Assembly: GCA_029261355.1 (NCBI GenBank)
Contig: JAJDBM010000036.1
Coordinates: 124,001 to 188,000 of the forward strand
Direction of reading: 5' to 3'
DNA: 64,000 nucleotides
Source: Nitrospirales bacterium
GTDB lineage: Bacteria > Nitrospirota > Nitrospiria > Nitrospirales > UBA8639
Shown: positions 39,718 through 61,664 of the stretch, in pieces
Layout: every line of letters starts with the position of its first letter
How positions within the stretch are numbered: the first letter of the stretch is position 1
Notes under the pieces: generated by a model
Database searches by the model: none
The model's input: the letters and a program-made list of their open reading frames with translations, nothing else
What the model was told of the DNA's origin: nothing
Made by a program: the position numbers and the translations under genes

Positions 39718-41196
39718 TCAATTCAAGACAGATGTCATTGTTTTTTGAACATGCGCACGCATAAGATTGATCGCGGCAGGACCAATATCATTCAGTAATG
39801 TCAAGGTAACCTCGCGTGCCACTTCCTGACCAGGACGCCCATTAACAGAAATACGAGTATATCGAACATTGGTACATTTCAACGCATTTTCCAATTCAAT
39901 TTGATAGGTGGTGATCGCTTCAACAGAAAGCTCTTGCTTTCGTTCAAAGACCCGCTTAGGGTCGTCGACTAATAAGATGGCTAAACGAGGCTTACGCAAT
40001 GCCAGAGCATACAAGCGATGTACAATATTTGGACCATTTTTGGTAAGTCGATTTTTCACCCACATGTCATGGAGGTAACGATCTGTGAGCATTACAAAAT
40101 CGCGACGATCACGATGTATGATTTGGCCATCAAGATTTGTGCAATACCTGAAATAACCTGACGATAAAACCCAAAAGTTCCGAACGCTTTCTGGCAAAGA
40201 AGAATAGATGAGACTCAGCCCTCGACGCCAAAGGGGTTTGGAGACAATTGAAGCTATAGGTTGCTCACCGTATTGAGCACTAGACCCTCCGACGCTCTTT
40301 CGGCCTGCATGTTTCCAACTCGTGATGTGATGAAAGGTTTCAAAAGATATGGGATATCCATCAAAGACTTTCTTGAGAATTTCACTCACTGTCGTTTTCC
40401 CAACCCCATCAGCCCCGTGCAAAGTATAGAGAAATGGGTTACTCAAATGCATAAAAAATAGCCGCGCTTCTACATAATGCTTCAATGAAGTTTTCCAAGT
40501 AGATTTCAACGGCATTTTTACAGGCTTTGGAATTATACTCAACCTCTCCCTCATGGTCGCCGAAGACACTTCAGAAGAAAGACATTCCTTCACATCACTA
40601 TTCTTTACCCCTAACAATTCTGCGGCTTGCTCGGTAACATTCAGGTCACTTCCAGCCAAATGTAGAAGGGTTGATCGCATAGACTCCAGGACATTCTTTC
40701 GTAAGCTTTGCACAAAGATGAGAAAGAATCGCCAAGAATGATTGGGAACTGGGATTCCCGAGGTACAATCGACGTCTAGATCGTAGCTGTTAATCGTAAG
40801 GTTCGGAGTGATCACAATTTCATCACGAACCTCAAAATATACCCATGTACGTTCCTGCTGTTTCACTGAAAGAACTGGATCGAAAATTAAGATTAAAAAG
40901 GCGTGATCACTACGACGACTAGTCATCACCAAACCGAGCTCCTTTGCAAGATCGGCAAAAGCAGAATCAAGTTTTGTCCAAACAGCAGGTGGAGCCATTA
41001 GATCTACATCAAACGGTGCTCGAGCTGGCAACTCTTCATAGTCTCGAATAAAGACGAGTCCTGGAAACTGTTTTTCCCATGGAAATGAGAATAACTGCTC
41101 ATGAAAATACCGAAGCGCATCTGAAAACAACTGCATTTTTATATCGCTGTTCATTCCGTCAAGATTCAAAAGCTCCAAGACCTTTCCCACATACAA
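39718..41196 (-). CDS. fusion: nucleotidyltransferase-like N-terminus plus thymidylate-kinase-like C-terminus
   Basis: Residues about 45-110 contain RDYEELPARAPFDVDLMAPP, resembling the D-x-D strand of minimal nucleotidyltransferase-fold proteins. The C-terminal domain from about residue 255 is a P-loop kinase: LHGADGVGKTTVSEIL (Walker A, 261-269), FVMLTDRYLHDMWV as the DR-Y segment of dTMP-kinase-like enzymes, and FERKQELS as a LID-like stretch. A helical linker of about 100 residues joins them. The start is probably TTG 41196, or Met15 (41154). Similar kinases occur in capsule and lipopolysaccharide clusters with unknown acceptors. It may phosphorylate a sugar or lipid. Confidence 0.55.
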   Translation of the reverse strand: MYVGKVLELLNLDGMNSDIKMQLFSDALRYFHEQLFSFPWEKQFPGLVFIRDYEELPARAPFDVDLMAPPAVWTKLDSAFADLAKELGLVMTSRRSDHAFLILIFDPVLSVKQQERTWVYFEVRDEIVITPNLTINSYDLDVDCTSGIPVPNHSWRFFLIFVQSLRKNVLESMRSTLLHLAGSDLNVTEQAAELLGVKNSDVKECLSSEVSSATMRERLSIIPKPVKMPLKSTWKTSLKHYVEARLFFMHLSNPFLYTLHGADGVGKTTVSEILKKVFDGYPISFETFHHITSWKHAGRKSVGGSSAQYGEQPIASIVSKPLWRRGLSLIYSSLPESVRNFWVLSSGYFRYCTNLDGQIIHRDRRDFVMLTDRYLHDMWVKNRLTKNGPNIVHRLYALALRKPRLAILLVDDPKRVFERKQELSVEAITTYQIELENALKCTNVRYTRISVNGRPGQEVAREVTLTLLNDIGPAAINLMRAHVQKTMTSVLN

Positions 41197-41242: not shown

Positions 41243-43489
41243 TTAAAACCAAGATTCAAGTTTCTCTAGAGCCAACCAAAATCCTGTACCTTGATCTTTA
41301 TGTCCTTGCCAAATTTCAGGAATAAAGCTTGCATTCGGAGCATACTTCTCCAATCCCTTCGCAAGGGCGGGAAAGTCAATCGTCCCAGCCCCAATCTGGA
41401 GACCTTCGCCATCCACACCGTCAGCATCCGCTAGATGGAGATGTGCAGTATGTGGTCCAATGAGTTGCACACATTCACTCATAGATAGTCCCAGATGATT
41501 GCAGGCTAAAGCAGAATGTGACACATCGAAACAGGTGCGTAGTCCAGTCTTTCGACAAAAGGCATCGACTTCATCTGGAATGACAAACAAGTTGTGAAAC
41601 CGTTGCCCTCCAAAATGCCATGGGAACGGTGGCATGGTCTGTGGAATGATCTCTACCCCTTTTAGATTCATACAGGACAACACATCGCCGAGCCTATCAT
41701 AGAGCTTTTCCCTCTCTTTAACACTCATCGGCTGATTCTGTGAAAAGCCACCAACATTCACAATGAGTTGTGGACAGTCAGTTTTTGGAAACCATTGCTT
41801 TAAAGAACGAGTGATATTTACAACATGCTCGAGATTTTTGACGGACTCCTGACGCCATTTCTGATTCTCTGCCACAAGGTCTAATACATGATCGCCTGCA
41901 AATAATTCAGGAGAATGCACAAGAAGTTGACTACTCAAAGGCTCTCGAAAAAAGCTCTTAAGATCAAGTTTAAGATCCTTGTAACTAAGATGAAACTCAA
42001 AAAGATTCGGTTTTACAAGACTGTGTAGTGTATAGAAATCATGGTAGCGGACGGGCACCCCCCAAGGACGCCTAAACTGGTACATACGCGGCTCGACAAT
42101 CCCTTCTCCAAGATCACTAGGATAGAAACAATCACCTTGTAAGATGGCTCGACGAGTTCGTCGGCCTATAAGGGCTGCTCGCCGATTAGGTTGAAGGCCA
42201 TTGCCTGGACTTTGAACCACGATCCACTCGTTGAGGATTTCTTCTCCTATCCCAATATCCGTCATAGCAACCAGGCTCTTCCCTAGTATTTCCCGATTCA
42301 TGAGTTCACCTTGCGACAAGGTACGTGTTTGCGAACCCCCAAGAGATTCTTCAACAACACGCACGGCTGCAACCATTTCAGCAAACTCCTGAGGTAGCAG
42401 GCTCACTTTGTGGTCATTGCCTTCTAGCTCACGATCCAGCGTAAAATGCTTTTCAATGACATTGGCTCCTTTGGCAACAGCAGCGACAGCCACCTGATAG
42501 CCTCGCTCATGTCCGGAATAGCCAACTGGCCCATTCACAAACTCTTTAAGACGATCAAGATAATTAAGATTCACATCCTTAAAGGGTGTGGGATACGTTG
42601 AGTTGCAGTGAAGTGGAACAAAGACCGTGCCAAACCTGCGAAGTAATGTAATCGCCTCAAGTATTTCGCCTTCATGGGACATTCCCGTTGATAGTAAGAC
42701 CGGTTTCCCCAGACTAGCCACAGCTTCTAGCAACTCATTATTGGTAAGATCGGCAGAGGCTATTTTGTATGCCTCGACTCCATATTCTTCCAACACCATG
42801 ACGCTCTTCAAATCCCATGGAGTGCATAGTGGAACAAGACCACAGCATTTACAGTGGTCAAAAGCTTTGAACAGGGAATCACGGCCAAGATTGAATCGCG
42901 ACAAAAGGTCAAGAGTGTACTGGGATCCAAGATCCTGCGAGCCATCGTTAGGATTGCCTCGATTCGCATACAATGTTTCCATGTCACGCATTTGGAATTT
43001 TGCACAGTTAGCCCCACTTTCAGCCGCTCGATCAATAAGTTGCTTGGCCCGGTCTAAATCGCCATTGTGATTGTTTCCAATTTCTGCAATCAAAAAGACC
43101 GGCTGGTTAGGTCCAATGACATGATTGCCAATGATGATTTCTTGCGCCGCCCGACGAGCAAAGGCAATAAGATGATTTTGAGCATCGATAAGGGGTATAA
43201 ATTCAATTCGCTCGGAAAAGAGTGTTTGAATATTATCTAATGACGCATTCATATCTGCCCAAACATACTCACTATTCGAAACGCTCGAAACCGGGACATT
43301 TAGATCGAAGTCTTTTCCGGACATGAGCCAACGTCGAATATCACCATCTGTCACCACACCCTCGAGTCGTCCATGTTCGGTAACTGAAAATACAATGCGA
43401 GATTTATTTTCACTGATCTTCTGTAATGCGGTTAACACACTATCCTCCGCAAACACGCAAAAGCGGGAGAGGTTACGCTCAACAATCAT
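41243..43489 (-). CDS. four-part nonulosonate synthase: CBS pair, NeuB, SAF and TIM-barrel isomerase-like domains
   Basis: A 748-residue protein. Residues about 5-115 are two CBS motifs (LEGVVTDGDIRRWLMSGKD in the first). Residues 125-385 are a NeuB synthase domain with LIAEIGNNHNGDL, AKFQM, LLSTGMSHEGEI, PLHCNSTYPTP, GYSGHERG and EKHFTLDRELEGNDHKVSL. Residues 403-460 are a SAF antifreeze-like domain (GKSLVAMTDIGIG to RRTRRAIL). Residues about 475-748 are a xylose-isomerase-like TIM barrel with TCFDVSHSALAC, HLHLADADG and PEIWQGH as likely metal ligands. NeuB condenses PEP with a 2-acetamido sugar to a nonulosonic acid. The barrel may isomerise or epimerise the substrate (inference). A cytidylyltransferase gene is 48 bases upstream. 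Confidence 0.88.
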   Translation of the reverse strand: MIVERNLSRFCVFAEDSVLTALQKISENKSRIVFSVTEHGRLEGVVTDGDIRRWLMSGKDFDLNVPVSSVSNSEYVWADMNASLDNIQTLFSERIEFIPLIDAQNHLIAFARRAAQEIIIGNHVIGPNQPVFLIAEIGNNHNGDLDRAKQLIDRAAESGANCAKFQMRDMETLYANRGNPNDGSQDLGSQYTLDLLSRFNLGRDSLFKAFDHCKCCGLVPLCTPWDLKSVMVLEEYGVEAYKIASADLTNNELLEAVASLGKPVLLSTGMSHEGEILEAITLLRRFGTVFVPLHCNSTYPTPFKDVNLNYLDRLKEFVNGPVGYSGHERGYQVAVAAVAKGANVIEKHFTLDRELEGNDHKVSLLPQEFAEMVAAVRVVEESLGGSQTRTLSQGELMNREILGKSLVAMTDIGIGEEILNEWIVVQSPGNGLQPNRRAALIGRRTRRAILQGDCFYPSDLGEGIVEPRMYQFRRPWGVPVRYHDFYTLHSLVKPNLFEFHLSYKDLKLDLKSFFREPLSSQLLVHSPELFAGDHVLDLVAENQKWRQESVKNLEHVVNITRSLKQWFPKTDCPQLIVNVGGFSQNQPMSVKEREKLYDRLGDVLSCMNLKGVEIIPQTMPPFPWHFGGQRFHNLFVIPDEVDAFCRKTGLRTCFDVSHSALACNHLGLSMSECVQLIGPHTAHLHLADADGVDGEGLQIGAGTIDFPALAKGLEKYAPNASFIPEIWQGHKDQGTGFWLALEKLESWF

Positions 43490-43537: not shown

Positions 43538-44239
43538 TCATGTTAACTCATGAATACGAAAGAGGGATTCAATAATTGAAAAATCGGCTAAACTATCGAT
43601 CTCGAGCCCTTCGGCCTCATTCATAATAAATCCAGCAATTACCCCGCCGAGACGGTTGTTCTCATTACAAAGGAGGGGAGTTCGCGTTATATAGATTGAA
43701 CCATTCTCCTTGTACTTCTTGTCAGCTTGTGCAATCTCCTGACGACGCGGACGTTTTCGATAGTCATAGCCAGCCACCGGCGGTAGCCCTAAGCCGCTAG
43801 GGAATGACCAGAAAAATGCATGAGTCTCTATCACGCTGATCAGCGAGTCTGCATTGCTTAAATAAAATTCTTCGACTGCCCGTTCAATGGAACCCGGTAG
43901 ACGAAGCGGTGACGTAGGCTGCAAAAGCATGACCGCATCTGGACAGTCTCCCTGTTGAGACAATTCCTCAACTACATGAAGCAATACAGGCTCCGTAGGC
44001 GTTTCATCACCTGCAAGATGAGATGGACGAAGACTGGGCACCTCTGCACCAGAATCAATGGCCACTTTGGCAATTTCTTCACTGTCCGTAGAAACGATCA
44101 CTCTATCGATCACATCTCCTGCAGCTAATGCTTGATCAATGCTCCAGGTTATTAATGGTTTCGCTGCAAGCGGCAATAGATTTTTTCCTGGCAGCCCCTT
44201 GGACCCACCTCGTGCTGGAATAACGGCAATAATTTTCAA
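43538..44239 (-). CDS. CMP-nonulosonate cytidylyltransferase (NeuA-like)
   Basis: Activates a nonulosonic acid with CTP. MKIIAVIPARGGSKGLPGKN is the CTP-binding signature, RVIVSTDSEEIAKVA and MLLQPTSPLRLPGSIERAVE follow, and YKENGSIYITR is the family C-terminal segment. Length of 233 is typical. The start is a TTG with an AGGGA sequence seven bases before it; no ATG fits. It is the first gene of a small unit with the 748-residue synthase downstream, so the pair probably makes and activates one nonulosonic acid. Confidence 0.92.
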   Translation of the reverse strand: MKIIAVIPARGGSKGLPGKNLLPLAAKPLITWSIDQALAAGDVIDRVIVSTDSEEIAKVAIDSGAEVPSLRPSHLAGDETPTEPVLLHVVEELSQQGDCPDAVMLLQPTSPLRLPGSIERAVEEFYLSNADSLISVIETHAFFWSFPSGLGLPPVAGYDYRKRPRRQEIAQADKKYKENGSIYITRTPLLCNENNRLGGVIAGFIMNEAEGLEIDSLADFSIIESLFRIHELT

Positions 44240-44801
44240 GTATAATCCCTGAAAAATCCAAAAACAAAATGAAGTAAACCCTCATCTAGGTAAAGGATTG
44301 CAAAATCAAAGAGGAATACAGGCATATCAGTACATGATAAAGAATGGACTAGTTGAACGATTGTACGTTTCAGCAATATCGTCAGGATTAGAGGCTATAC
44401 TAATATTCAATTGTGATTGACCACTGATGGATTCTGTAATGTCTGTCACTATTAATCAAAGTGTTTATTTAAAATCCAGGCATCGATTGTGTTTCACAAT
44501 AAAGTCAATATAACATGGCCAGAAGGATGAAACGCAGGAATAATTATCAACAACGCATTACCATGGAGTCATGAAACCCTGGGCAACGAAACAGATAGAA
44601 AATTCATTTCGAGCTGAATATTTAATCACCTTAAGTAAATGGCCATAAATCTATTAAACCAGCCACTATAGTACACACGCATAGACTCACAGTGGATACC
44701 ATAAGAAATTTCGGGTATGTTTAAATTAACTTCAAAGAAACTTCTTCAAACAATACATTATTCGGACATTGGGAAATCATTGATTATCTAGAGGCTTGAG
44801 C
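44240..44801. other. intergenic region between divergent genes
   Basis: An AT-rich stretch of 562 bases between a minus-strand cytidylyltransferase gene and a plus-strand sulfotransferase gene. It should contain promoters for both directions. No gene, repeat or mobile-element end was recognised. Confidence 0.4.
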
Positions 44802-45773
44802 ATGTCTAAAAATCCAATATTTATTACAGGTGTCTACCGATCCGGGACAACTTTATTATCACGGGCATTGAATGATCACCCGAACATTTCTGTGACATAC
44901 GATACGATACATTTCATGAGGTTTCATTACCAGAAAGACCGCCAACTAGATCCCAACCTAATTGAGGAAATAATTAATGAAATTGAAGCAAGAGTTAGCC
45001 GTAGAAGTAATGCAAAGATAAATTTCACAAAAATTCGTACGACATTGAATGCCTCCAATAACCTCTCATACGGAGATCTCTATGAAGGGATAATGAAAGA
45101 ATTTTTGTTAAAAGGGGAAAAGTATATATGGGGTGAAAAAACTCAGCTTGCATGGAGTAAAATCCCTGATTTCCTGACAATGTTTCCTGATGGAAAGGCT
45201 ATACTTTTAATTCGTGACCCAAGAGATATTGTTTCTTCATACAAAAAATTTACAAATGAAGACGGGTTAAAATATCTTGACGGTGCCTTCACTTCTTTAT
45301 CATCTATGAATCATAGTAAATATTTCGAAAAATGTTTACACCCTGAAAATTTCAGGGTCATCAAATATGAAGAACTTGTCAGTAATTACGAAAAGGAATT
45401 GAAAAGTCTTTGTGAATGGATTGGTGTGCCATGGCATGAAACAATAATTGACATAGCGCGTTATCAAGATAATTATGGCAAACTATGGGGCAGTAACAGT
45501 TCCTACGGCGAATCCAAAAAGAATGTGGACAGGAACTCTATAGGTAAATATAAGCAACATTTAAGTAAGGTGGAAATATACTTTATTGAAATGATCCTTA
45601 GGACAAGTCTTGATAACTATAACTATCCATATTTCTCAAGCCATTTATCAGAGAAAGAGTGGACGGAATTGTATCAAATTTTAGATGATCCGTTTATTAA
45701 CTCAAGATATGTCCAGTGGCTAAAGAATAATCAGGGTGTAGAAGAGTATCCATCTGCTCCTCCCAGAGTATAG
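44802..45773 (+). CDS. PAPS-dependent sulfotransferase
   Basis: The N-terminus PIFITGVYRSGTTLLSRAL is the degenerate P-loop that binds the 5'-phosphosulfate of PAPS, and AILLIRDPRDIVSSYKKF is the 3'-phosphate-binding motif. Length of 323 is normal for the Sulfotransfer_1/3 type. The ATG at 44802, with GAGG eight bases before it, is preferred to an in-frame TTG two codons earlier. The base composition is much more AT-rich than genes to either side, and the strand is opposite, suggesting acquisition as a unit with the next gene. Likely adds sulfate to a glycan. Confidence 0.88.
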   Translation: MSKNPIFITGVYRSGTTLLSRALNDHPNISVTYDTIHFMRFHYQKDRQLDPNLIEEIINEIEARVSRRSNAKINFTKIRTTLNASNNLSYGDLYEGIMKEFLLKGEKYIWGEKTQLAWSKIPDFLTMFPDGKAILLIRDPRDIVSSYKKFTNEDGLKYLDGAFTSLSSMNHSKYFEKCLHPENFRVIKYEELVSNYEKELKSLCEWIGVPWHETIIDIARYQDNYGKLWGSNSSYGESKKNVDRNSIGKYKQHLSKVEIYFIEMILRTSLDNYNYPYFSSHLSEKEWTELYQILDDPFINSRYVQWLKNNQGVEEYPSAPPRV

Positions 45774-51489: not shown

Positions 51490-52227
51490 TTATTCATTCA
51501 ATATATTTCCTGCATTGCCTTCTCTTAGAGATAAGTAAAACTCAGCCAAGCAAAAGTCATCGTAAGTATCTATATCCACTGATCGAGACACTGGCATGAG
51601 ATACGGATAGGTTCTATCAGTGTAGTAGGTTTGTTTTTCTTTCAGTAGAGAATACTTAAAAATATAGATTGCACCATTCGGGAGATAAGCCGTTTTTTCT
51701 TCCTGACGATTTGCGAGCCCTTCTCTTCCAGAAAAAACCCCACGGAGCACACCCTTCTCATCAATATACTTATACCATTGAAGTGGATGGGGAGACTGAT
51801 AAAATGAAATCACGGAGTCTGCTTCCTTCTCTCTGAAAATTTTAACTGAATTTTCAATATCGATACTCTCACGCAATGGAGCCGTTGGTAAACAAACAAC
51901 CAATTCATCTATAAGAGAAGATACGTTTGATTTCCCTTCGGAAATACACTCGCTGTTTAAACGATCTACTGTATAGGTATACGTATCAATCGCCAAAGAA
52001 TTATCTTGAGCCAGCTCAGGAGGCCGCATGAAAGGTACTTCAGCACCATACTCACGACCGACATTGGCAATTTCCTCACAATCTGTGGAAAGAATAATGC
52101 GGCTCAGGGAACTAGCACCAAGCGCGGCTTCAATTGTCCAAGCTATCAAGGGCTTGCCTCCAAGAAGGCGAGTATTTTTCCCTGGTAATCCTTTGGATCC
52201 GCCACGTGCAGGAATAATGGCAATCAT
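51490..52227 (-). CDS. CMP-nonulosonate cytidylyltransferase (LegF/PseF-like)
   Basis: Activates the product of the LegI-type synthase as a CMP sugar. MIAIIPARGGSKGLPGKNTR is the CTP-binding loop, SRIILSTDCEEIANVG and LVVCLPTAPLRESIDIENSV follow, and YLPNGAIYIFKYS is the C-terminal family segment. Length of 245 is typical. It is 13 bases downstream of the DegT aminotransferase gene and is the third cytidylyltransferase locus in the window, counting the decayed copy. Confidence 0.9.
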   Translation of the reverse strand: MIAIIPARGGSKGLPGKNTRLLGGKPLIAWTIEAALGASSLSRIILSTDCEEIANVGREYGAEVPFMRPPELAQDNSLAIDTYTYTVDRLNSECISEGKSNVSSLIDELVVCLPTAPLRESIDIENSVKIFREKEADSVISFYQSPHPLQWYKYIDEKGVLRGVFSGREGLANRQEEKTAYLPNGAIYIFKYSLLKEKQTYYTDRTYPYLMPVSRSVDIDTYDDFCLAEFYLSLREGNAGNILNE

Positions 52228-52240
52228 ACTCTTCGACCCA

Positions 52241-53527
52241 TTAGAGATCCTTTAAGTTTTTTATGACTTTTTCAAGCCCTTTGACAATATCATCCATATC
52301 GTTTTTCGTAAGTGGAGGATAAATAAATGGATTCACTACTGAACGTTTTTCCCATGCCTCTTCAGCAACCGGACAGATTCCTTTAGAATAATCTACATTG
52401 CCTTTATAATGCTCACCCACAAAAGGAAAACCTTTGTCTCCAAGGGCGATTTTTTTTTGAAAAATTGGTTCAAGGTAAAGTGGCCTAACATACCCACCAC
52501 GCAACGGGATTCCCTCAGCATTTAGTGCCTGAACAAACTTGGTCCTTTGAATGCCCACACTTCCTTCATCAAACAACATCACATGCATATAGTAGACATG
52601 TGTAGAACCTGGACGAACTGATGGCAAAGTCAAACAAATATTTTTGCTCAACCGTTCATTGAGATATGCCACCAAATCTACCCTATACTGGTTTAAGCGT
52701 TCCATTTTCTTTAGCTGTTCGATCGCAATAGCAGCTTCAATTTCAGTCATGCGGAAATTTAGGCCAACCATATTGATAAGGGATTGAGGCGCATAACCTG
52801 GGATGTCCACCAAATTTTCACCATGATTACGAATTAACTGCATCCTTAATGCAAGTTCGTGATCAGAGGTAACAGCAACTCCCCCTTCTCCGCATTGAAT
52901 ATTTTTATGCCGATTGAGGCTAAATATACCTATATCTCCGAGAGTTCCTGCAAGTCTGCCATTATATTTGGCACCCGGTGCTTGAGCACAATCTATAATT
53001 ACTTTTAGATCATGCTGACGCGCAATTCGATTAATGGCATTCATATCAGACGACTGGCCATGGATATCAGTTGTCAGAATTGCCTTGGTAAACGGAGTAA
53101 TTTTTTCTTCAATACTAATAGGGTCCAGACAAAAATAATCGGGTTCAATATCGGCAAATACGGGAATACCGCCATAAAACAGGATTGAGGTCGCTGTCGC
53201 CGACATCGTATAAGGACTGACGATTACTTCATCACCCGGACATATTCCAACAGCTCCCAAGGCCATAAACAGTGCAGAGGTAGCAGAATTGCATGAGACA
53301 GAATAGCCAATCTCGAATGTCTCACTCCATGATCGTTCAAATTTTTGAACCATAGGACCACCAAAGAACTCTGGACTTGGACTCCCAACAAATCCTGAGA
53401 GCAAACCTGTCCTCAACACTTCTGTCACACTACGAATTTCCTCTTCCCCTGTGGTAACAGAACCTGGGAATATGGCTGACCTAACAGGTTTGCCACCCAA
53501 TAATGCCAATTCACTCAATTGACGCAC
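52241..53527 (-). CDS. DegT/DnrJ/EryC1/StrS-type sugar aminotransferase
   Basis: PLP-dependent transaminase acting on keto sugars. The PLP-binding lysine is in FSLNRHKNIQCGEGGVAV. VSCNSATSALFMALGAVGIC and VIIDCAQAPGAKYNGRLAGT are family landmarks. Length of 428 is slightly long for the family. The start is a GTG overlapping the end of the upstream gene by 13 bases. It is the second such aminotransferase in the region and is less typical of LegC, so it may add an amino group to a different sugar. Confidence 0.88.
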   Translation of the reverse strand: MRQLSELALLGGKPVRSAIFPGSVTTGEEEIRSVTEVLRTGLLSGFVGSPSPEFFGGPMVQKFERSWSETFEIGYSVSCNSATSALFMALGAVGICPGDEVIVSPYTMSATATSILFYGGIPVFADIEPDYFCLDPISIEEKITPFTKAILTTDIHGQSSDMNAINRIARQHDLKVIIDCAQAPGAKYNGRLAGTLGDIGIFSLNRHKNIQCGEGGVAVTSDHELALRMQLIRNHGENLVDIPGYAPQSLINMVGLNFRMTEIEAAIAIEQLKKMERLNQYRVDLVAYLNERLSKNICLTLPSVRPGSTHVYYMHVMLFDEGSVGIQRTKFVQALNAEGIPLRGGYVRPLYLEPIFQKKIALGDKGFPFVGEHYKGNVDYSKGICPVAEEAWEKRSVVNPFIYPPLTKNDMDDIVKGLEKVIKNLKDL

Positions 53528-54573
53528 TTTCTACCCGTTTCCATCAAGTTCATAAGGAAATCTTCCAACCTGTCAAGACTTCCGGCTACAATTTCTTTAA
53601 TTTTATCTCTCTGATTACTAATTTCTCCCCTGAACAGCCATTCCTCACGGAGAAAGTTAACGAATTGCGGACTCGAACAAAATCGCTGAATCAAACCACG
53701 TTCAGACAAAAAACAACGATCTTCTCCGACTGCTCCAGGTTGAAGAGAAACAGTTGGCACACCCACGATCAAGCTTTGCGTAAGAATGGAAGAAAACATA
53801 CCAACTATGAGTGAGTATTCGGCAAGTTCGACCTCTGGGTTTTGAATGAGGGTAATCTTTCTGCCATTTTCCTTTAGCCGCTCAGTGTATACATGAATAC
53901 TTTCTGCTGGATGAACCAAGAAATGCAAACGACTGACGTCAAAACCAAGAGAATCCCAAGATTCCAAACTACATTGAACAAAGTCAAGTTCATCATACCC
54001 TAACCCCTTACCGTAAAAATGAGATATCGGCTGTGTGACCATGAGAGCTAATCCAGAGTCTGATTTTGGATGCCTATCACGAAATTCCCTGAGGCTTTCT
54101 TCCCAATGAGGCTGGCCTATAATCTTAATCTTCTCTTCTGGTAGCCCTTCAGTTACCATGCGTTGTTTTGCTATTGCATCTAAGGTCAATATCCAATCTG
54201 GAAGATTCAACGTTTGGGTTCCGTCCGTTTCGATGGCCTGAAAACGGCGAGAGTAATTCAACCAGTTATCAATCAACTGCGCACAAGGAATCTGTCGGCG
54301 TTGTAACTCCCTTACAAACATACCTTCAAGGAAACTATCAACTGATGTTGAGAGCAAGGCACTATCAGGCATAAGCTTCTCAATCCACTCTCCTGCCGTT
54401 GCTTCATCACAGCTTTGTAACACCACATGGGATATTCCGCTTCGGGTCAGACAAATGGACGACTGAGCAGAAGACAAAACCTTCCAATCAAAACGTCCCT
54501 CACTCTTCCATTTCCTAAGAAGGGGAGCCAAATATTCCGCACCTGCAATCTGATCTGTCACAAACAGGATCAT
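53515..54573 (-). CDS. GT-B-like surface-glycan protein, function unknown
   Basis: A 352-residue soluble protein. The pattern (ILFVTDQIAGAEYLAPLLRK at the start, GFDVSRLHFLVHPAES in the middle, then SLIVGMFSSILTQSLIVGVP and TVSLQPGA) resembles GT-B proteins of the UDP-GlcNAc-epimerase/CDP-glycerol-transferase group. Its ATG overlaps the oxidoreductase stop by four bases and its end overlaps the aminotransferase start by 13, so it is an integral member of the operon. No clear NeuC/LegG motif set was found, so a hydrolysing epimerase role is doubtful. Transferase is more likely. Confidence 0.5.
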   Translation of the reverse strand: MILFVTDQIAGAEYLAPLLRKWKSEGRFDWKVLSSAQSSICLTRSGISHVVLQSCDEATAGEWIEKLMPDSALLSTSVDSFLEGMFVRELQRRQIPCAQLIDNWLNYSRRFQAIETDGTQTLNLPDWILTLDAIAKQRMVTEGLPEEKIKIIGQPHWEESLREFRDRHPKSDSGLALMVTQPISHFYGKGLGYDELDFVQCSLESWDSLGFDVSRLHFLVHPAESIHVYTERLKENGRKITLIQNPEVELAEYSLIVGMFSSILTQSLIVGVPTVSLQPGAVGEDRCFLSERGLIQRFCSSPQFVNFLREEWLFRGEISNQRDKIKEIVAGSLDRLEDFLMNLMETGRKCVN

Positions 54574-55577
54574 AAATAGATTATCCTACCCCCATCCTCT
54601 GCAGATCTTCGAATTGAATCCAAGACTTCAGCTACGTGGTATGCACTAGTTCCAGTGCTGATTATTGGAAATTCTCCACCCTGAAGAAAAACTGCAATTT
54701 CTTCATAAGCATGATGCAAGCCACACACTGGCCCTTTGGCATAACCGGAATCAGATTCATGTAGATGATAATATCCCGGAAAGCAAAGATCTAAAATGCC
54801 ATCAAACTTCCTAATCCGGTACCCCCCAGCCTCTAGATGAAAGCGACAGTTTTGGAAAGAAATTTCCATATCACAAAGATCATAATCTACTCCATCACAA
54901 CCATTCAGACGTCCACTAAATCCTGATTGAAACTCAAGAGTTGTAGAGAGCGATGGGTCTTCTAGGTGAGATTCTGGTAGCTTGAGCCCATCTGCACTCA
55001 CCGCAACGACTGAACCCCAAATTGAAACCATGAGATCAATAATATGGGAGCCATAATTGTAAAGTCCCTTGCTATAGACAACCTGCATGTCTATTGGGTT
55101 ACCATAGGACCGCATTTCCTTCCTGAAACTAGCCATTTTAGAATCCCAACGACGTTGATAATTCACGACAATTGGTATTCCCTGATTTTCAGCGTCGAGT
55201 AAGATCATTTTTGTTTCACTTAGATTTGAACAAAATGGTTTTTCGCAAAAAATAGCCTTTAGTTTTTTTTCAGTAAGAGTCTTGTGAAGAATAGGGAAAT
55301 GGGTATTTGTTGGACTAGCCACAACGATAAGATCCAACTCATCTGGAATCATCGCGTCATCAATCGAGGACAGAATTGGCACACTACTTGACTTGTTGAT
55401 GCGAAATGTTTCTTGGCTAGCTGGATCTGGATCTACAACAGCTAATAATTCATAGGCTGGATTTTGGGAAATAGCCCCAAAATGGTTGGAAGGAAATTGA
55501 GTCGCTTTCCCATGATCGTTTTGGCTTCCGACTCTGCCCAAACCAACGAGAACTGTGCGAAGCTTTGACTTAATCAC
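54570..55577 (-). CDS. Gfo/Idh/MocA-family oxidoreductase
   Basis: NAD(P)-dependent sugar oxidoreductase. The N-terminal LRTVLVGLGRVGSQNDHG is a Rossmann loop. IVVASPTNTHFPIL and AIFCEKPFCSNL (the EKP motif) are family markers. The C-terminal domain forms an open beta-sheet (ADGLKLPESHLEDP and onwards). Length of 335 is normal. The start is a GTG lying eight bases inside the end of the CBS-nucleotidyltransferase gene. PtmF-like oxidoreductases occur in Campylobacter legionaminic loci, and the equivalence here is a guess. Confidence 0.88.
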   Translation of the reverse strand: MIKSKLRTVLVGLGRVGSQNDHGKATQFPSNHFGAISQNPAYELLAVVDPDPASQETFRINKSSSVPILSSIDDAMIPDELDLIVVASPTNTHFPILHKTLTEKKLKAIFCEKPFCSNLSETKMILLDAENQGIPIVVNYQRRWDSKMASFRKEMRSYGNPIDMQVVYSKGLYNYGSHIIDLMVSIWGSVVAVSADGLKLPESHLEDPSLSTTLEFQSGFSGRLNGCDGVDYDLCDMEISFQNCRFHLEAGGYRIRKFDGILDLCFPGYYHLHESDSGYAKGPVCGLHHAYEEIAVFLQGGEFPIISTGTSAYHVAEVLDSIRRSAEDGGRIIYL

Positions 55578-56628
55578 GCCTTCTGTAGACTACGTCAGTA
55601 TTTGCTGTTTCATAATCATTTAAATTTCCAATATCTTTCCAATACTCGTGTATTAAATATGTCGCTGGAGTTTCACCCGCAGCAACCAAGCTTTGAAATA
55701 CCTCAGGCATATCCATATAAGAATTTTTGGCAATTAAGTCCAAACAGGCGGGTTCAAGTACATAAATTCCAGCGTTAATGAAATACTCCTGAATCGGCTT
55801 TTCAACGAGTCTCCCTAAATGATGACCCTGCAGTTCCACCACCCCAAACGGAATCTGCACTTGGTACTTTCGAACTGCCATCGTAGCCTTACTCTTCATC
55901 TCATCATGGTAATTCAACAGATTATGAAAATTAATGTCAGTGACAACATCAGCATTCATTACTACAAAAGGTCCATTGGGACGCTCAGGTAAAAGACTCA
56001 AGGCCCCAGCTGTTCCTAAACGCTTCTCCTCTCTTATGTACTTGATACTAACGCCCCAGCGATTTCCATCTTGAAAATAATTCTCAAGAATGTGCGATTT
56101 GTAGTTTACAGCAAGATAAAACTGTTCAAAGCCCTCGTGGATAAACGACATCATGATGCTCTCAAGCATCGGAGCTTTGCCAACTGGAAGCATCGGCTTG
56201 GGAGTATCTCTGGTCAAATGCCCTAATCGTGCTCCAAGGCCACCTGCCATAAGAATCACAGGGGTATCACCGCGACTTACGGCATTTACTCCTGAAAGGA
56301 CGACATCAACCAAATAGCCCTCCTCATCGACAATGGGGAGATGCCTGCGTTGAAGGTGACGAAGTTGATTCATTGACTCTTCGTACGATTGCCCAGCTAT
56401 CCCTTTTGTAAATTTGGCATTCATTACTGTCGATAATAGGGTATTAAATTTATCCCCTCGAAGTAGTGCCCTGCGAATATCCCCGTCAGTTAACATTCCA
56501 AGCATTTTCCCCTGCAAATCAACAACAAAAAGCACACCCATACCTACGTCATCCAATTGTTTCATTGCCTTTAGAAGTTCACAGTTGCCTTGAATGGTCA
56601 GACGAGATAGCAATTGAGAATTGGTCAT
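55570..56628 (-). CDS. CBS-domain sugar nucleotidyltransferase (PtmE-like)
   Basis: With the ATG at 56628 (GGGAG eight bases upstream), residues 5-118 are two CBS motifs (GMLTDGDIRRALLRGDKF) and residues 122 to the end a sugar-1-phosphate nucleotidyltransferase with VILMAGGLGARLGHLTRDTP and KPMLPVGKAPMLE. VVMNADVVTDINF is the metal-binding Asp region. The domain order equals that of PtmE/GlcN-1-P guanylyltransferase, which makes GDP-GlcNAc precursors for CMP-legionaminic acid in Campylobacter jejuni. A TTG six codons upstream is less likely as start. Confidence 0.85.
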   Translation of the reverse strand: MTNSQLLSRLTIQGNCELLKAMKQLDDVGMGVLFVVDLQGKMLGMLTDGDIRRALLRGDKFNTLLSTVMNAKFTKGIAGQSYEESMNQLRHLQRRHLPIVDEEGYLVDVVLSGVNAVSRGDTPVILMAGGLGARLGHLTRDTPKPMLPVGKAPMLESIMMSFIHEGFEQFYLAVNYKSHILENYFQDGNRWGVSIKYIREEKRLGTAGALSLLPERPNGPFVVMNADVVTDINFHNLLNYHDEMKSKATMAVRKYQVQIPFGVVELQGHHLGRLVEKPIQEYFINAGIYVLEPACLDLIAKNSYMDMPEVFQSLVAAGETPATYLIHEYWKDIGNLNDYETANTDVVYRRRD

Positions 56629-56685
56629 GAAGACACTCCCAGCCAAAGGGAAACACTTGTAATCATCGTCAAAGATAATTGGTCA

Positions 56686-57741
56686 TTAAATATCTTCGAG
56701 TTTCAGTAACTCATCGGCAGCAATCGTCCTTCTCGCCATCCGCCCTATAAACAAATCACGATAACGTGGCTCGACACCCGTTCCCGGCCGTTTGCAATCT
56801 AAATCATCAGTAGTGATGAGGGAACCTTTATTAATGGTACGGGCAGCAACGAGGCTCCTTCGAAATGATGATACTTTCTTCTTTTCTGCTGCTGAAACTA
56901 TTCGACGCGTAGACCCAAGCGCCTGAATAATTCGCCGTGAACTTTGAACGATAAAGGCCATTTCTTCTTTAGTCGCCGAAACTTTATGATCCCAACCAGA
57001 CAGGTTCTTATCAACAGTGAAATGTTTTTCAATTGCACAAGCACCACAAGCAATGGCAGCAAGTGTTATTGGTGTTCCAACTGTGTGGTCAGAAAACCCT
57101 ACAGGATATTCAGGGTAACAGCTTCTTAGCATTTCCAAATTTTTCAAATTGACTTCATGATCATTAGGCGGGTACACCGACACGCAATGCAAAAGAATGA
57201 TTTCTTTGTTTCCGGTTGCCTCAATCGTCTCAATAGCATTATCAATTTCCGCCAAGGAACCCATTCCAGTCGAAAGCAAAACAGGTAGAAATTTGCCTCC
57301 AATATATTTCAGAAAACCTAAATTATTGAGATCCATTGAGGCAACTTTAATGAAATTTGAGTTGAGCGGACCACAGAGAAAGTCCACTTCTTGACAAGAA
57401 AAAGGTGTGCTAGAAAAACCGATGCCTACTTGATCACAATACCTTTTCATTTCTAAGAGTTCTGACTCGGTCACACTGTACTCTTCAACGATCTCTTCAA
57501 GTGTGTAGTCCTGCCGGTTCCTGTAATCATCATCAAGGAAATAATTATCCTGATACACTTTTTTTGAAAAAATAGTATCCTTTGTCCATGACTGAAACTT
57601 TACAGCATCACACCCTGCATCTTTTGCTTGATCAATCAACTTGCGGGCCAATTCCATATCACCATTATGATTTGAGCCAAGCTCTGCAATGATATATGGC
57701 TCTTTAAAGTTGCCAATCTTCTTCTTACCGATTTCCATCAT
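56686..57741 (-). CDS. nonulosonic acid synthase, NeuB/LegI family
   Basis: PEP-dependent condensing enzyme. YIIAELGSNHNGDMELARKL, AVKFQSW, LLSTGMGSLAEI, LHCVSVYPP, GFSDHTVG and EKHFTVDKNLSGWDHKVSAT match the NeuB TIM barrel. Residues about 290-351 (FRRSLVAARTINKGSLITTD, GRMARRTI) are the SAF domain. Length of 351 is typical. It lies in a compact unit with legB and legC, and a 2,4-diacetamido-6-deoxy hexose is the expected substrate, giving legionaminic acid or an isomer. A pseudaminic acid synthase is less likely, since the flanking genes are LegB/LegC-like. Confidence 0.92.
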   Translation of the reverse strand: MMEIGKKKIGNFKEPYIIAELGSNHNGDMELARKLIDQAKDAGCDAVKFQSWTKDTIFSKKVYQDNYFLDDDYRNRQDYTLEEIVEEYSVTESELLEMKRYCDQVGIGFSSTPFSCQEVDFLCGPLNSNFIKVASMDLNNLGFLKYIGGKFLPVLLSTGMGSLAEIDNAIETIEATGNKEIILLHCVSVYPPNDHEVNLKNLEMLRSCYPEYPVGFSDHTVGTPITLAAIACGACAIEKHFTVDKNLSGWDHKVSATKEEMAFIVQSSRRIIQALGSTRRIVSAAEKKKVSSFRRSLVAARTINKGSLITTDDLDCKRPGTGVEPRYRDLFIGRMARRTIAADELLKLEDI

Positions 57742-57772
57742 TTTCTTTCGGACTTTTTTCTAGAGGAGAAAT

Positions 57773-58651
57773 TCAGTGATAATCCACAACCCCAATCTCT
57801 TCTGGCAAACGTGCGATTTCCCACCATAGTGGATTTGGGGGTACGTTAAGACGCGTCTTCTCCAAATAAGAATCTCTAAAAGATGTCGACTGTAGTAACA
57901 TTAACTCAATATCCAGAAACCGTGCGGCCATTTCCTCATACCATTTACCTAAATCAGACAATGCCAAATAGTGTTTTTTCTTTACCGCCACGGTAAAGAT
58001 AATTTGCTCGTCATTTAGCTTGTGTGGTGACGCAATATTAGCTGGATGCTGACGATAATAGGTTGCTGTTTGCCCATTGAATACTGCTTGAATTTTCTGT
58101 GCCATCAGCAACCGAGTAAAGAAAGCCCAGTCAAAGGCGGTCACATCATCAGAAATTCTTTCAATAATCTCTACTAATCCCTGAGTTCGAACTGCTGTAT
58201 TGGACAAACCAAGAACATTGTAGAATCGGATATCTTTTTCTGAGATTTTCTGACCATTGGAAAATCTACTTCCAAACATAGATTCCTCAGAATTCATTCC
58301 GTTTCCATACAAAATCAAATCATGAAAAACCACTTCGGCATTAACCTCGAGGCTTTTTGTTAGCTGACAAATACGATTAGACTGAAATGTGTCATCTGCA
58401 TCAGCAAAAACCAGACCTTCATAGCCTAACTCTAATGCCCAAGCGATGGATTGCTTTCTAATTCCAGCCGGAGTGCCAGAAAAATCACAAACCTTTGAAC
58501 CGAGGGGAGCATCATACTTGAATTCAGGGAGTCCATCATTCCCTATCAACAAATCAAATTGTACATCACTTTGTGTATTTAGCGATTCAAAAAATTCTGG
58601 AAGATACCGCAAAACTGAAGGGTAGATACAAGTTAAAACACCAATCTTCAT
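57773..58651 (-). CDS. GT2-type glycosyltransferase
   Basis: GT-A fold. MKIGVLTCIYPSVLRYLPEF begins strand 1, FDLLIGNDGLPEF is strand 3, and LVFADADDTFQSNRICQLTK carries the D-x-D metal motif. YRQHPANIASPH is the acceptor-side motif seen in many GT2 proteins. The ATG at 58651 is preferred to one nine codons upstream because similarity begins there. Length is 292. It sits between legI and the NeuD-like gene, so it may attach the product or a neighbouring sugar. Confidence 0.83.
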   Translation of the reverse strand: MKIGVLTCIYPSVLRYLPEFFESLNTQSDVQFDLLIGNDGLPEFKYDAPLGSKVCDFSGTPAGIRKQSIAWALELGYEGLVFADADDTFQSNRICQLTKSLEVNAEVVFHDLILYGNGMNSEESMFGSRFSNGQKISEKDIRFYNVLGLSNTAVRTQGLVEIIERISDDVTAFDWAFFTRLLMAQKIQAVFNGQTATYYRQHPANIASPHKLNDEQIIFTVAVKKKHYLALSDLGKWYEEMAARFLDIELMLLQSTSFRDSYLEKTRLNVPPNPLWWEIARLPEEIGVVDYH

Positions 58652-58843
58652 AATTCTTTTTTCCCATATCGCGGACAACGGACATTACATCAAACCCAAG
58701 AATTCAAATTAAGAAGATAACCGAACCATCCAGATACGAAAACAGCAACTCACCTCGAACTTTTCAGAAAACTTTCCCACTCTCACCAAAGGGGCATCAT
58801 TTTCAAAGTAATTCCCTGGTCAAGTCAGATTGGATCAATATTT

Positions 58844-59476
58844 TCAAGATGACATTTTCTTCAATGGCAAAGAAGTGCCTGGCTTGCAATCTACTAGAAC
58901 CCGTTCTCCTAAACCAATTAAACAACGTTCTCCAATATTAATTGATTGACGGACGCTACTTCCGCTACCTATGAACGTTCCATCACCTACGTGCACACCA
59001 CTATTGATCGAAGACCCTGTGGAAATGTGACAATGATCGCCTATTACCACATCATGCTCAATCAGTGACTGACTGTTTATAATGCCATTACAGCCTACTC
59101 TCGCTCCCGCATTGACAACTGCTCCATGCATGACAATAGATCCATTTCCAAGCAAAGCATGGGTCGACACATAAGCACGTGGCGAAATAATAACGGGCAA
59201 CGTACAGCCAACCTGTGTTGCCAGGTTAAAAAGATGTATCCGCAAGTCCGGAGTTTTTATTTGACCTACGGCAACCAAAGCATGAGCACTATCCTCTAAC
59301 AAGGCCGGCATGTCCGCATCCGATCCCAAAACGGGGTATCCAAGAACTTTGCAACCCACTTCTTGAGGCAACCCAATCAATCCAAAAACCTTAAAACACC
59401 CCTCCTGTTCGATTACGTCAATGCAAGCACGGGCATGCCCACCAGCACCAACCAGGAGTATAGACGGTATGCTCAA
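58844..59476 (-). CDS. NeuD/PglD-type sugar O/N-acetyltransferase
   Basis: Residues 1-75 form a Rossmann-like UDP-sugar binding domain (LLVGAGGHARACIDVIEQEG). The rest is a left-handed beta-helix of hexapeptide repeats (GNGSIVMHGAVVNAGARVG onwards, IGDHCHISTGSSINSGVHVG). His137-like catalytic residues are in IEHDVVIGDHCHI. Length of 210 is typical. In legionaminic synthesis this would N-acetylate the 4-amino group (the LegH role). The start is a TTG, overlapping the legC stop as TTGA. Confidence 0.88.
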   Translation of the reverse strand: MSIPSILLVGAGGHARACIDVIEQEGCFKVFGLIGLPQEVGCKVLGYPVLGSDADMPALLEDSAHALVAVGQIKTPDLRIHLFNLATQVGCTLPVIISPRAYVSTHALLGNGSIVMHGAVVNAGARVGCNGIINSQSLIEHDVVIGDHCHISTGSSINSGVHVGDGTFIGSGSSVRQSINIGERCLIGLGERVLVDCKPGTSLPLKKMSS

Positions 59477-60654
59477 CTTGCTCCCACCATAGTAAGATGA
59501 GCACTGCTGGGTAAATTGATCAGCCGTCTTACTAGTGACTCAGCCACCGACAATTCCATTCTAGGATATTTCCGATATGGTACTAACCGATGCATCAATG
59601 TCCAGGTTGGTCGAGTCACCAACCCCATATCGTTGGTGCTGTCCAGAATAGTGTCGCGCTGACTGGCAACGGATTCATCCAATAGCAACGTCTGCAACCA
59701 ATAGTTGCTGCGACAGCCTTCGGGTTCAACCACGATACGCAGCTTCTTCACTTCTGCAAACTCGGTCTGGTACCGCTGGAAGAGACGACGCTTGGCTTCC
59801 AGAAAGCTAGGAAGTTGCTCAAGTTGGGCACACCCGATGGCCGCATTGATATTTGGCATCCGATAGTTATAACCGATTTCATCGTGTGAATATTCCCAGC
59901 GATGTCGCATTTTGGCAGTAGTGGTCAAGTGCTTGGCACGGCGGGAAAGTTCCGGATCATTAGTGAGAATGGCCCCTCCCCCGCCAGTGGTGATCGTTTT
60001 ATTGCCGTTGAAGCTCAGTGCAGCCGTCACGCCAAAAGTTCCGGTATGTCGTCCAGACACAGTGCTCCCCAAAGATTCAGCCGCATCTTCCACTACCGCT
60101 ATGTGAAAATCTTGAGCAACCGACAATAATCGGTCAATATCTACGGGGTGTCCAAAAGTGTGCACGGGAACCACAGCTCGAATCACCCTTCCAGTATTGC
60201 GATTTACACATTGACCATTACGAATTTCACTTTCATCCAACAAATAGTCATGCAACGCTTGAGGGTCAATTCCAAGCGTGCGCTCCTCACAATCAACAAA
60301 ATGCGGTATTGCACCACAATAAGTTACTGCATTGGCAGTAGCTACAAATGTGAGTGATGGAACTAGTACTTCATCGTCTAGTCCTACTCCAGCTAGTTTG
60401 AGAGCAATATGTAAGGCAGCAGTACCGTTTATTACTGCTACGGCGTGCTTTGCCCCAGTATATGCGGCAAGCTCTACTTCAAAATGCTCAACAAACTTTC
60501 CGACCGAAGAGACATAAGTCGTGTCAAGACATTCTTTGAGATATAATAATTCATTTCCAGCAAAACGTGGTTCGTGGAGGACTACGGGATTTTTCCCAAC
60601 CACCACTTGAATGGCCTCAACAATTTGACTAGCTAAAGTTGTCTCAGCTCTCAC
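59473..60654 (-). CDS. legC: LegC-type aminotransferase
   Basis: PLP-dependent aminotransferase of the DegT family that aminates C4 of the 4-keto-6-deoxy sugar. VVLHEPRFAGNELLYLKECL and DTTYVSSVGKFVEHFEVELA are characteristic of LegC. The PLP lysine is in SFNGNKTITTGGGGA, and VVPVHTFGHPVDID is conserved. Length of 393 matches. The start is a GTG. It follows legB by 5 bases and overlaps the NeuD-like gene by 4, so it is an integral part of the operon. Confidence 0.92.
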   Translation of the reverse strand: MRAETTLASQIVEAIQVVVGKNPVVLHEPRFAGNELLYLKECLDTTYVSSVGKFVEHFEVELAAYTGAKHAVAVINGTAALHIALKLAGVGLDDEVLVPSLTFVATANAVTYCGAIPHFVDCEERTLGIDPQALHDYLLDESEIRNGQCVNRNTGRVIRAVVPVHTFGHPVDIDRLLSVAQDFHIAVVEDAAESLGSTVSGRHTGTFGVTAALSFNGNKTITTGGGGAILTNDPELSRRAKHLTTTAKMRHRWEYSHDEIGYNYRMPNINAAIGCAQLEQLPSFLEAKRRLFQRYQTEFAEVKKLRIVVEPEGCRSNYWLQTLLLDESVASQRDTILDSTNDMGLVTRPTWTLMHRLVPYRKYPRMELSVAESLVRRLINLPSSAHLTMVGAS

Positions 60655-60659
60655 AATAG

Positions 60660-61664
60660 TTACAGGTTATAGATTTCAGGTTTATACGAATTTAAGTGCT
60701 CTGAGTTTGTAAACCAACTGACAGTTTCAGCAAGACCACGTCGGAAACCCTCCAAAGAACCATATTGAGGCACCCAACTAAGTAATTCTCGGGCCTTGGT
60801 GTTGGATGCCCACAATCGTTCTACTTCGCTCTTTGCTGGCCGAAGACGCTGTTCGTCTATAAGTATCTCGATTTCTTCCTCCATTATCTCGGCGATTAGA
60901 CGAGCAGTATCGCCAATTGAAATTTCAAAATTGCTGCCGATGTTGATGAATTGTCCAACCCCTCGATCAGACTCTAGCGCAGATGTATATCCTGCTACTG
61001 TGTCGGCTACATAATTGAAATCCCTTGTGGGAGACACGGCTCCAAGCTTAATCGCTTTATTACCTTTGGCGATCTGAGTGATGATAGTGGGAATCACTGC
61101 TCGAGCTGACTGACGAGGACCGTAAGTGTTAAACGGACGTAGAATAGAAACAGGGGTTCCAAAAGAAGTATAAAAAGACATTGCTATTTGATCAGCTCCA
61201 ATTTTGCTCGCTGAATAAGGCGACTGCCCCTGCAAAGGATGATCTTCGGTGATTGGAACAAACCGTGCCGTACCATAGACCTCACTGGTGGAGGTGTGCA
61301 AAACCTTGCCAACATCTAAATCTCGAGCAGCCTGAACAATATTCAAGGTACCTTTGATGTTGGTATCAACATAGGTATCAGGGGAATGATAGGAGTAAGG
61401 GATGGCAATCAAAGCTGCCAGATGAAGAACGGCATCGCAACCTCGCATTGCTTCACGAACCCCGTAGGCATCCCGAATATCCCCCGGAAACACTTCGAAT
61501 TTCCCCCGAAGATCTTCTTCGCAATGGTCAAGCCATCCCCATGAATTAAAGGAGTTATAGAACACAAATGCACGCACTTTATGCCCGGCTCGAACTAGAA
61601 CTTCAGTAAGATGAGAACCAATGAAGCCATCAGCTCCGGTAACCAAAATTTTTTTATAACTCAT
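60660..61664 (-). CDS. legB: LegB-type NDP-GlcNAc 4,6-dehydratase
   Basis: Extended SDR that makes the 4-keto-6-deoxy intermediate. KKILVTGADGFIGSHLTEVL is the NAD loop. RAFVFYNSFNSWGWLDHCEE is a LegB-typical segment, STSEVYG and SPYSASKIGADQIAMSFY give the catalytic Tyr-Lys, and LRPFNTYGPRQSARAVIPTI closes the site. Length of 334 matches. It is the first gene of the polycistronic unit down to about 51.5 kb and begins with a clear ATG. Confidence 0.93.
   Translation of the reverse strand: MSYKKILVTGADGFIGSHLTEVLVRAGHKVRAFVFYNSFNSWGWLDHCEEDLRGKFEVFPGDIRDAYGVREAMRGCDAVLHLAALIAIPYSYHSPDTYVDTNIKGTLNIVQAARDLDVGKVLHTSTSEVYGTARFVPITEDHPLQGQSPYSASKIGADQIAMSFYTSFGTPVSILRPFNTYGPRQSARAVIPTIITQIAKGNKAIKLGAVSPTRDFNYVADTVAGYTSALESDRGVGQFINIGSNFEISIGDTARLIAEIMEEEIEILIDEQRLRPAKSEVERLWASNTKARELLSWVPQYGSLEGFRRGLAETVSWFTNSEHLNSYKPEIYNL

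Follow-up and report, generated by a model that had tools for sequence, protein, structure and literature searches.

Among the closest described systems is a protein from Leptospira interrogans (NP_711794 / YP_002104) in which NeuB is fused to an endonuclease-like domain. This fusion was noted in 2012 (PMC3438082) and mentioned again in 2016 (PMC4758666). Its C-terminal domain is homologous to phosphodiester-cleaving endonucleases and, because of that homology, was proposed to be a phosphatase (PMC3438082). As in the locus described below, a legionaminic set adjoins the fusion gene, and aminotransferase and CMP-synthetase genes are present (PMC3438082, PMC4758666). By contrast, the N-terminal part of the Leptospira protein has been described as a transferase domain and not as a CBS pair. 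Judged by the descriptions in these papers, NP_711794 would belong to the same clade of fused synthases as the protein discussed here.

The synthase part can also be compared with the NeuB of Neisseria meningitidis (NANAS, 1xuu). This enzyme consists of a NeuB barrel and a SAF domain, is 30% identical to the protein described below, and has in common with it all the residues that bind PEP and Mn. Nevertheless, it carries Arg314, Glu134, Phe112 and Asp214, all of which are changed in the fused protein, and it has neither a CBS pair nor a C-terminal barrel. Arg314 is the sole SAF residue in the active site of the meningococcal enzyme, where it helps to place the N-acetyl group of ManNAc, and the R314A mutant is inactive (PMC6795526).

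Layout and distribution of the fused synthase

The gene lies at 41243-43489 on the minus strand of the window, which is the whole 64,000-nucleotide stretch of Nitrospirales DNA that was analysed. It is a single open frame of 748 codons, with exactly the coordinates given in the initial annotation, and the plus strand of the same interval is closed by many stops. All four parts of the protein are read from the minus strand. A CBS pair with a TDGDIRR motif comes first (residues 1-112, 43154..43489); its first repeat is recognized by Pfam (2.4e-8) and its second by alignment to the solved CBS pair 4o9k (profile positions 12-108). It is followed by the NeuB catalytic barrel (residues 113-395, 42305..43153; Pfam 1e-78), which scores 264.6 bits against a cut-off of 22.1 for the family PF03102. 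The SAF (antifreeze-like) domain (residues 396-462, 42104..42304) is under the Pfam cut-off in this protein (0.004; 18.1 against 21 bits), reaches 37.6 bits in a relative (L045), and was aligned to 1xuu, 4ipi and 4ipj. Finally, residues 463-748 (41246..42103) form a xylose-isomerase-like TIM barrel of the AP_endonuc_2 family (PF01261, 7.5e-17; 62.3 bits against a cut-off of 31.1). The domain search and the 4o9k alignment thus bear out the four-part reading of the initial annotation. AlphaFold modelled the whole protein with a mean pLDDT of 91.8 and a pTM of 0.72, and the C-terminal barrel alone with a pLDDT of 93.8 and a predicted fold like that of ketose 3-epimerases. Since over 50 genomes keep the architecture and the length at identities of about 50-65%, the four-part protein is the product of neither chance nor misassembly.

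Scanning one genome from each GTDB species turned up 457 relatives of the barrel, and the loci studied are those of the best 80. These come from Cyanobacteriota, Pseudomonadota, Bacillota, Chloroflexota, Actinomycetota, Chlorobiota, Bacteroidota and other phyla, and are NeuB-SAF-barrel fusions; remoter members beyond the best 80 of the 457, including stand-alone barrels, might differ. Two length classes are observed: about 748 amino acids with the CBS pair and about 630 without it. Within the phylum of the window, 396 genomes were covered; eight of them have the barrel, always in fused form, and none has a stand-alone barrel. The only apparent split among the best 80, a locus with NeuB and barrel as separate genes (L064), shows a same-frame stop and a lost N-terminus, and is thus an interrupted copy of the fusion. 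Longer forms (1008-1073 and 971 amino acids; L045, L081, L086 and L094) were rejected as artefacts, produced by the choice of start in GC-rich DNA that overlaps another frame or by a run of Ns that joins two genes. The fused genes of L081 and L086 are identical, although one comes from a MAG titled Actinomycetota and the other from Sphingomonas corticis; binning contamination is the likely cause. A virus or phage origin of the family was also rejected, as no relatives were found among viral contigs or phage records.

A quick NeuB tree groups the fused synthases as a single clade (SH-aLRT 99), and, with truncated rows removed, one change separates the CBS from the CBS-less forms. The literature search, made mostly outside subscription journals, found no paper on the version with the CBS pair, but a fusion of NeuB to this kind of barrel was on record through Leptospira. 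It likewise found nothing about the changes in the acceptor site or the CBS pair that moves between proteins, both described below. What is new here is the placing of the fused synthases in one clade with a remodelled acceptor site, the invariant Gln in the metal site of the barrel, and the presence of the CBS pair either on the synthase or on a kinase.

The acceptor site of the synthase

The fused clade was aligned with 44 other NeuB sequences, and residues are given here in N. meningitidis NeuB numbering. The clade retains K129, S132, S154, Y186, S213, H215, E234, H236 and D247, and those that bind PEP and metal (K129, S154, H215, E234, H236 and D247) are identical across it; in the window protein, the kept PEP and metal residues are K242, H327, E346, H348 and D359. 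At the same time, the clade carries the substitutions F112W, E134D and D214G, has an invariant Arg at position 217 (86/86) that is rare elsewhere, and has Ser at position 314 in 87 of 87 proteins. The changed residues of the window protein are W225 (equivalent to F112), D247 (E134), G326 (D214) and Ser427 (Arg314). Among ordinary NeuB proteins, Arg314 is found in 38 of 41, and the exceptions carry Thr, Lys or Met; the interrupted fusion L064 accounts for one further Ser. The identity of this column was checked with 1xuu (Arg), 4ipi (Ala mutant) and 4ipj (Lys mutant). Thus, the synthase part is not the standard NeuB that the initial annotation took it for.

Taken together, these five changes make ManNAc and diacetamido hexoses, if bound in the usual way, less likely acceptors, and the alignment suggests that the acceptor of the fused clade differs from the usual one. 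This falls short of proof because Arg217 might make up for Arg314, in which case the acceptor could still be N-acetylated. If Arg217 does replace Arg314 in this role, the protein could be an ordinary synthase of Neu5Ac or a legionaminic-type acid, whose barrel is merely structural or regulatory. The invariance of Arg217 is consistent with such a synthase, and so is the presence of a full legionaminic-type gene set in the window, at 51490-61664 on the minus strand and 8-18 kb from the four-part synthase. This set encodes LegB and LegC (522.8 and 542.7 bits, each above its cut-off), a PglD-like acyltransferase, a NeuB, a CBS-nucleotidyltransferase, a further aminotransferase and a cytidylyltransferase. 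However, it already has its own cytidylyltransferase and its own ordinary NeuB, a protein of 351 amino acids with Arg at position 314 (56686..57741, minus strand), so the cell most likely uses the four-part synthase for another sugar. In addition, the four-part protein scores well under the equivalog cut-offs for N-acetylneuraminate synthase (TIGR03569; 299.8 against 399.65 bits) and for the pseudaminic acid synthase PseI (TIGR03586; 228.9 against 340.25 bits). The barrel itself shows dozens of invariant polar residues at its strand ends across phyla, unlike a passive domain. An ordinary synthase with an idle barrel is therefore quite improbable. Under the favoured alternative, the acceptor that the NeuB part condenses with PEP would be an aldose but not ManNAc, and the usual contact to a 2-N-acetyl group would probably be missing.

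Within the legionaminic-type cluster there are also genes for a GFO/IDH-type oxidoreductase (54570-55577, minus strand) and for a 301-amino-acid protein without a family match (57773-58678, minus strand).

Fold and candidate metal site of the C-terminal barrel

The barrel shares its fold with ketose 3-epimerases (2zvr, 5h1w, D-tagatose/D-psicose 3-epimerase) and with MJ1311 (3wqo) at Z scores of 22-24. The top structural matches are 2zvr, 5h1w and 3wqo, with Z of 23.7-23.9 and 12-20% identity; for 2zvr, Z is 23.9 and the rmsd is 2.8 over 244 residues. These enzymes and the barrel have in common an Asp, a His and the Glu of strand 8. They differ in that the Glu of strand 5, which serves as metal ligand and base in the epimerases, is Gln617 here, and in that the barrel is fused to a synthase.

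The invariant residues at the strand ends include His525, Gln617, Asp655, His658, His685 and Glu725. By invariance and alignment, the candidate metal site would be made up of Gln617, Asp655, His685 and Glu725, with His658 and His525 nearby. Asp655 and His658 lie in the motif TCFDVSHS, His685 in HLHLADADG and Glu725 in PEIWQGH. The position of Gln617 was established with a profile alignment to 31 endonuclease IV sequences and a sister family of stand-alone barrels (cluster 9), where it stands in the column in which a Glu (E145 in endonuclease IV) binds the metal. For UlaE, MAFFT also places the Glu of that enzyme at Gln617, and hhalign pairs His685 and Glu725 with its His211 and Glu251. Glu613 was first assumed to be the strand-5 ligand because it is invariant, but it was rejected, as the profile alignments put the ligand column at Gln617 and Glu613 lies at the opposite end of the strand. 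L063:5174-6001 and the barrels of cluster 9 represent a second, stand-alone AP_endonuc_2 barrel that recurs in CBS-less operons and keeps the Glu of strand 5.

The initial annotation had judged the ligand-like residues of the barrel to be intact. This stands for Asp655, His658, His685 and Glu725; three of the four classic ligands are retained, whereas the strand-5 Glu is Gln617 in every relative. Instead of the Glu-Asp-His-Glu quartet of ketose 3-epimerases, the site thus reads Gln617-Asp655-His685-Glu725. Because of the invariant Gln617, neither a textbook epimerase site nor a phosphatase site of the endonuclease IV type is intact. The many invariant polar residues nevertheless indicate that the barrel is probably catalytic, in line with the activity that had been suggested for it. 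Of the isomerase or epimerase function proposed in the same place, the nearest fold agrees, but the metal site is not the canonical one. Our best guess from fold and alignment is that the barrel isomerises or epimerises a sugar with the help of a metal held in an unusual site, although Gln617 takes away one of the two Glu residues on which classic epimerases depend, and the barrel may therefore catalyse a different reaction.

One such reaction is dephosphorylation. In the animal pathway to Neu5Ac, a phosphorylated condensation product is formed and then dephosphorylated. By analogy, NeuB could use a 6-phosphorylated aldose as the partner of PEP, leaving the phosphate for the barrel to strip, as endonuclease homology had suggested for the Leptospira fusion. 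Endonuclease IV belongs to the same superfamily and has the same fold as the barrel, its structure 5zhz is a high Foldseek match (6.9e-11), and equivalents of its H69, D179, H182, H216 and E261 are present or likely. By contrast, its nine-ligand, three-metal site is not retained intact: H109 is replaced by Asn578 and E145 by Gln617, and D229 and H231 fall within a four-residue deletion of the barrel. Ketose 3-epimerases also rank first by Z, though 5zhz is within 1.5 of them. A phosphatase thus has little probability. Under the preferred reading, the barrel would instead ready the acceptor by isomerisation or epimerisation at C1/C2, next to the aldehyde. It would act on the acceptor, and not on the product, because the carbon beside the ketone of a 2-keto-3-deoxy product carries no stereocentre.

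Gene neighbourhood, the CBS pair and a possible route

Directly upstream of the synthase, after a gap of 48 bp, lies a gene for a PseF-like cytidylyltransferase (43538..44239, minus strand; Pfam CTP_transf_3, 1.9e-22), which matches the PseF model at 1.3e-36 but under its equivalog cut-off. A cytidylyltransferase is found within five genes of the synthase in 42 of 54 CBS-form loci and in 14 of 17 CBS-less loci, and the plasmid pT173e of Ensifer canadensis has the identical pairing of the two genes. This pairing is in line with a synthase for an ulosonic acid. Other neighbours in the window are a downstream gene (39718-41196, minus strand) for a 492-amino-acid protein with a weak match to a dTMP-kinase-like P-loop and an N-terminal half without a Pfam match, and, upstream of the cytidylyltransferase on the opposite strand, a sulfotransferase gene (44796-45773, plus strand) in an AT-rich stretch (44-46 kb, 36% GC).

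The surroundings of the CBS-less synthases are different. A GHMP kinase with an N-terminal CBS pair, most like D-glycero-D-manno-heptose-7-phosphate kinase, is encoded directly upstream (-1) in all 17 CBS-less loci (L073:7578-8966 and 16 others) and in none of the 54 CBS-form loci. An HddC-like nucleotidyltransferase is present in 15 of these 17 loci and a GmhA-like isomerase in 11. Therefore, CBS control is placed either on the synthase or on the kinase, and the constancy of heptose-type enzymes suggests a different or longer acceptor route in the CBS-less operons. The self-contained route of the initial annotation is not supported as stated, since the CBS-less form has these enzymes encoded alongside. 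In CBS-form genomes, a heptose acceptor made through GmhA was rejected: no close GmhA homologue was found in nine of ten genomes checked, so their acceptor should not depend on GmhA. The window's own genome does have a close GmhA homologue.

As the CBS-less operons make a nucleotide sugar, something must free the acceptor before condensation. Members of the AP_endonuc_2-type fold perform hydrolysis and dehydration besides isomerisation. The barrel could thus release the acceptor from the nucleotide sugar, as a stand-in for the hydrolysing epimerases NeuC and LegG, or could modify the finished ulosonic acid. The kinase and the HddC-like transferase just upstream fit such a release. However, the CBS-form loci have neither of these nucleotide-sugar genes (0/54) yet share the same catalytic signature, and nine of the ten genomes checked, as stated, lack a close GmhA homologue. 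Release of the acceptor, or late modification, seems unlikely compared with preparation of the acceptor by the barrel.

In relation to control, most characterised CBS pairs bind AMP, ADP or ATP, and CBS-PPase is one case. It is a less probable but serious alternative that the pair on the synthase senses adenine nucleotides, that is, energy state. On the other hand, the best-scoring solved CBS pair among single contiguous matches in the profile search is 4o9k (44.5 bits), from an arabinose-5-phosphate isomerase, which is the first enzyme of the CMP-Kdo route; the 4o9k structure was presumably solved with CMP-Kdo bound. Moreover, the motif TDGDxRR of the synthase pair (51/59) is found again on three further enzymes encoded in CMP-ulosonate loci: the kinase (13/16), the isomerase of 4o9k, and the PtmE-like CBS-nucleotidyltransferase of the window (55570..56646, minus strand), which lies 12 kb from the four-part synthase and has its own TDGDIRR pair. 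The KpsF/GutQ arabinose-5-phosphate isomerases and the PtmE-type proteins thus resemble the synthase in joining this pair to an early enzyme of a CMP-ulosonate pathway, although that enzyme is a sugar-phosphate isomerase or a nucleotidyltransferase and not a synthase. Since the proteins that share the motif are early enzymes of such loci, we infer by analogy that the synthase pair may read the CMP-linked product, which is a better guess as a ligand than adenine nucleotides. Feedback of this kind has a parallel in the inhibition of PseB by CMP-pseudaminic acid, as stated in a title by McNally et al. that PMC4758666 cites.

The best explanation, which we hold tentatively from sequence comparison and modelling, is that of a regulated bifunctional ulosonic-acid synthase, whose barrel would prepare a non-canonical acceptor. 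The neighbouring cytidylyltransferase would convert the product to its CMP form, which would then enter a surface polysaccharide, while the CBS pair would bind the CMP-sugar (or CMP) and throttle the first committed step. The presence of the same kind of CBS pair on the upstream kinase in CBS-less operons fits the control of whichever step comes first. A more specific and doubtful proposal is that two genes, those of the four-part protein and the cytidylyltransferase, would be enough to turn a common cell sugar into a CMP-ulosonic acid whose structure has yet to be described. In this route, the barrel would make the aldose, the altered NeuB would condense it with PEP, and the CBS pair would shut the route as the CMP-sugar builds up; CBS-less operons may start from a heptose and arrive at a longer acid of ten carbons.

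Hundreds of sequenced species from several phyla carry a relative of this protein, and no paper was found that identifies its product. Genes of the NeuB family are often taken as a sign of sialic, legionaminic or pseudaminic acid. Should the acceptor differ as proposed, such predictions would be wrong for the fused clade, and cyanobacteria, rhizobia and other bacteria would carry a surface sugar that has still to be found. Finally, the moving CBS pair would allow one to test directly whether pathways to CMP-ulosonates are subject to feedback by these products at their first step.
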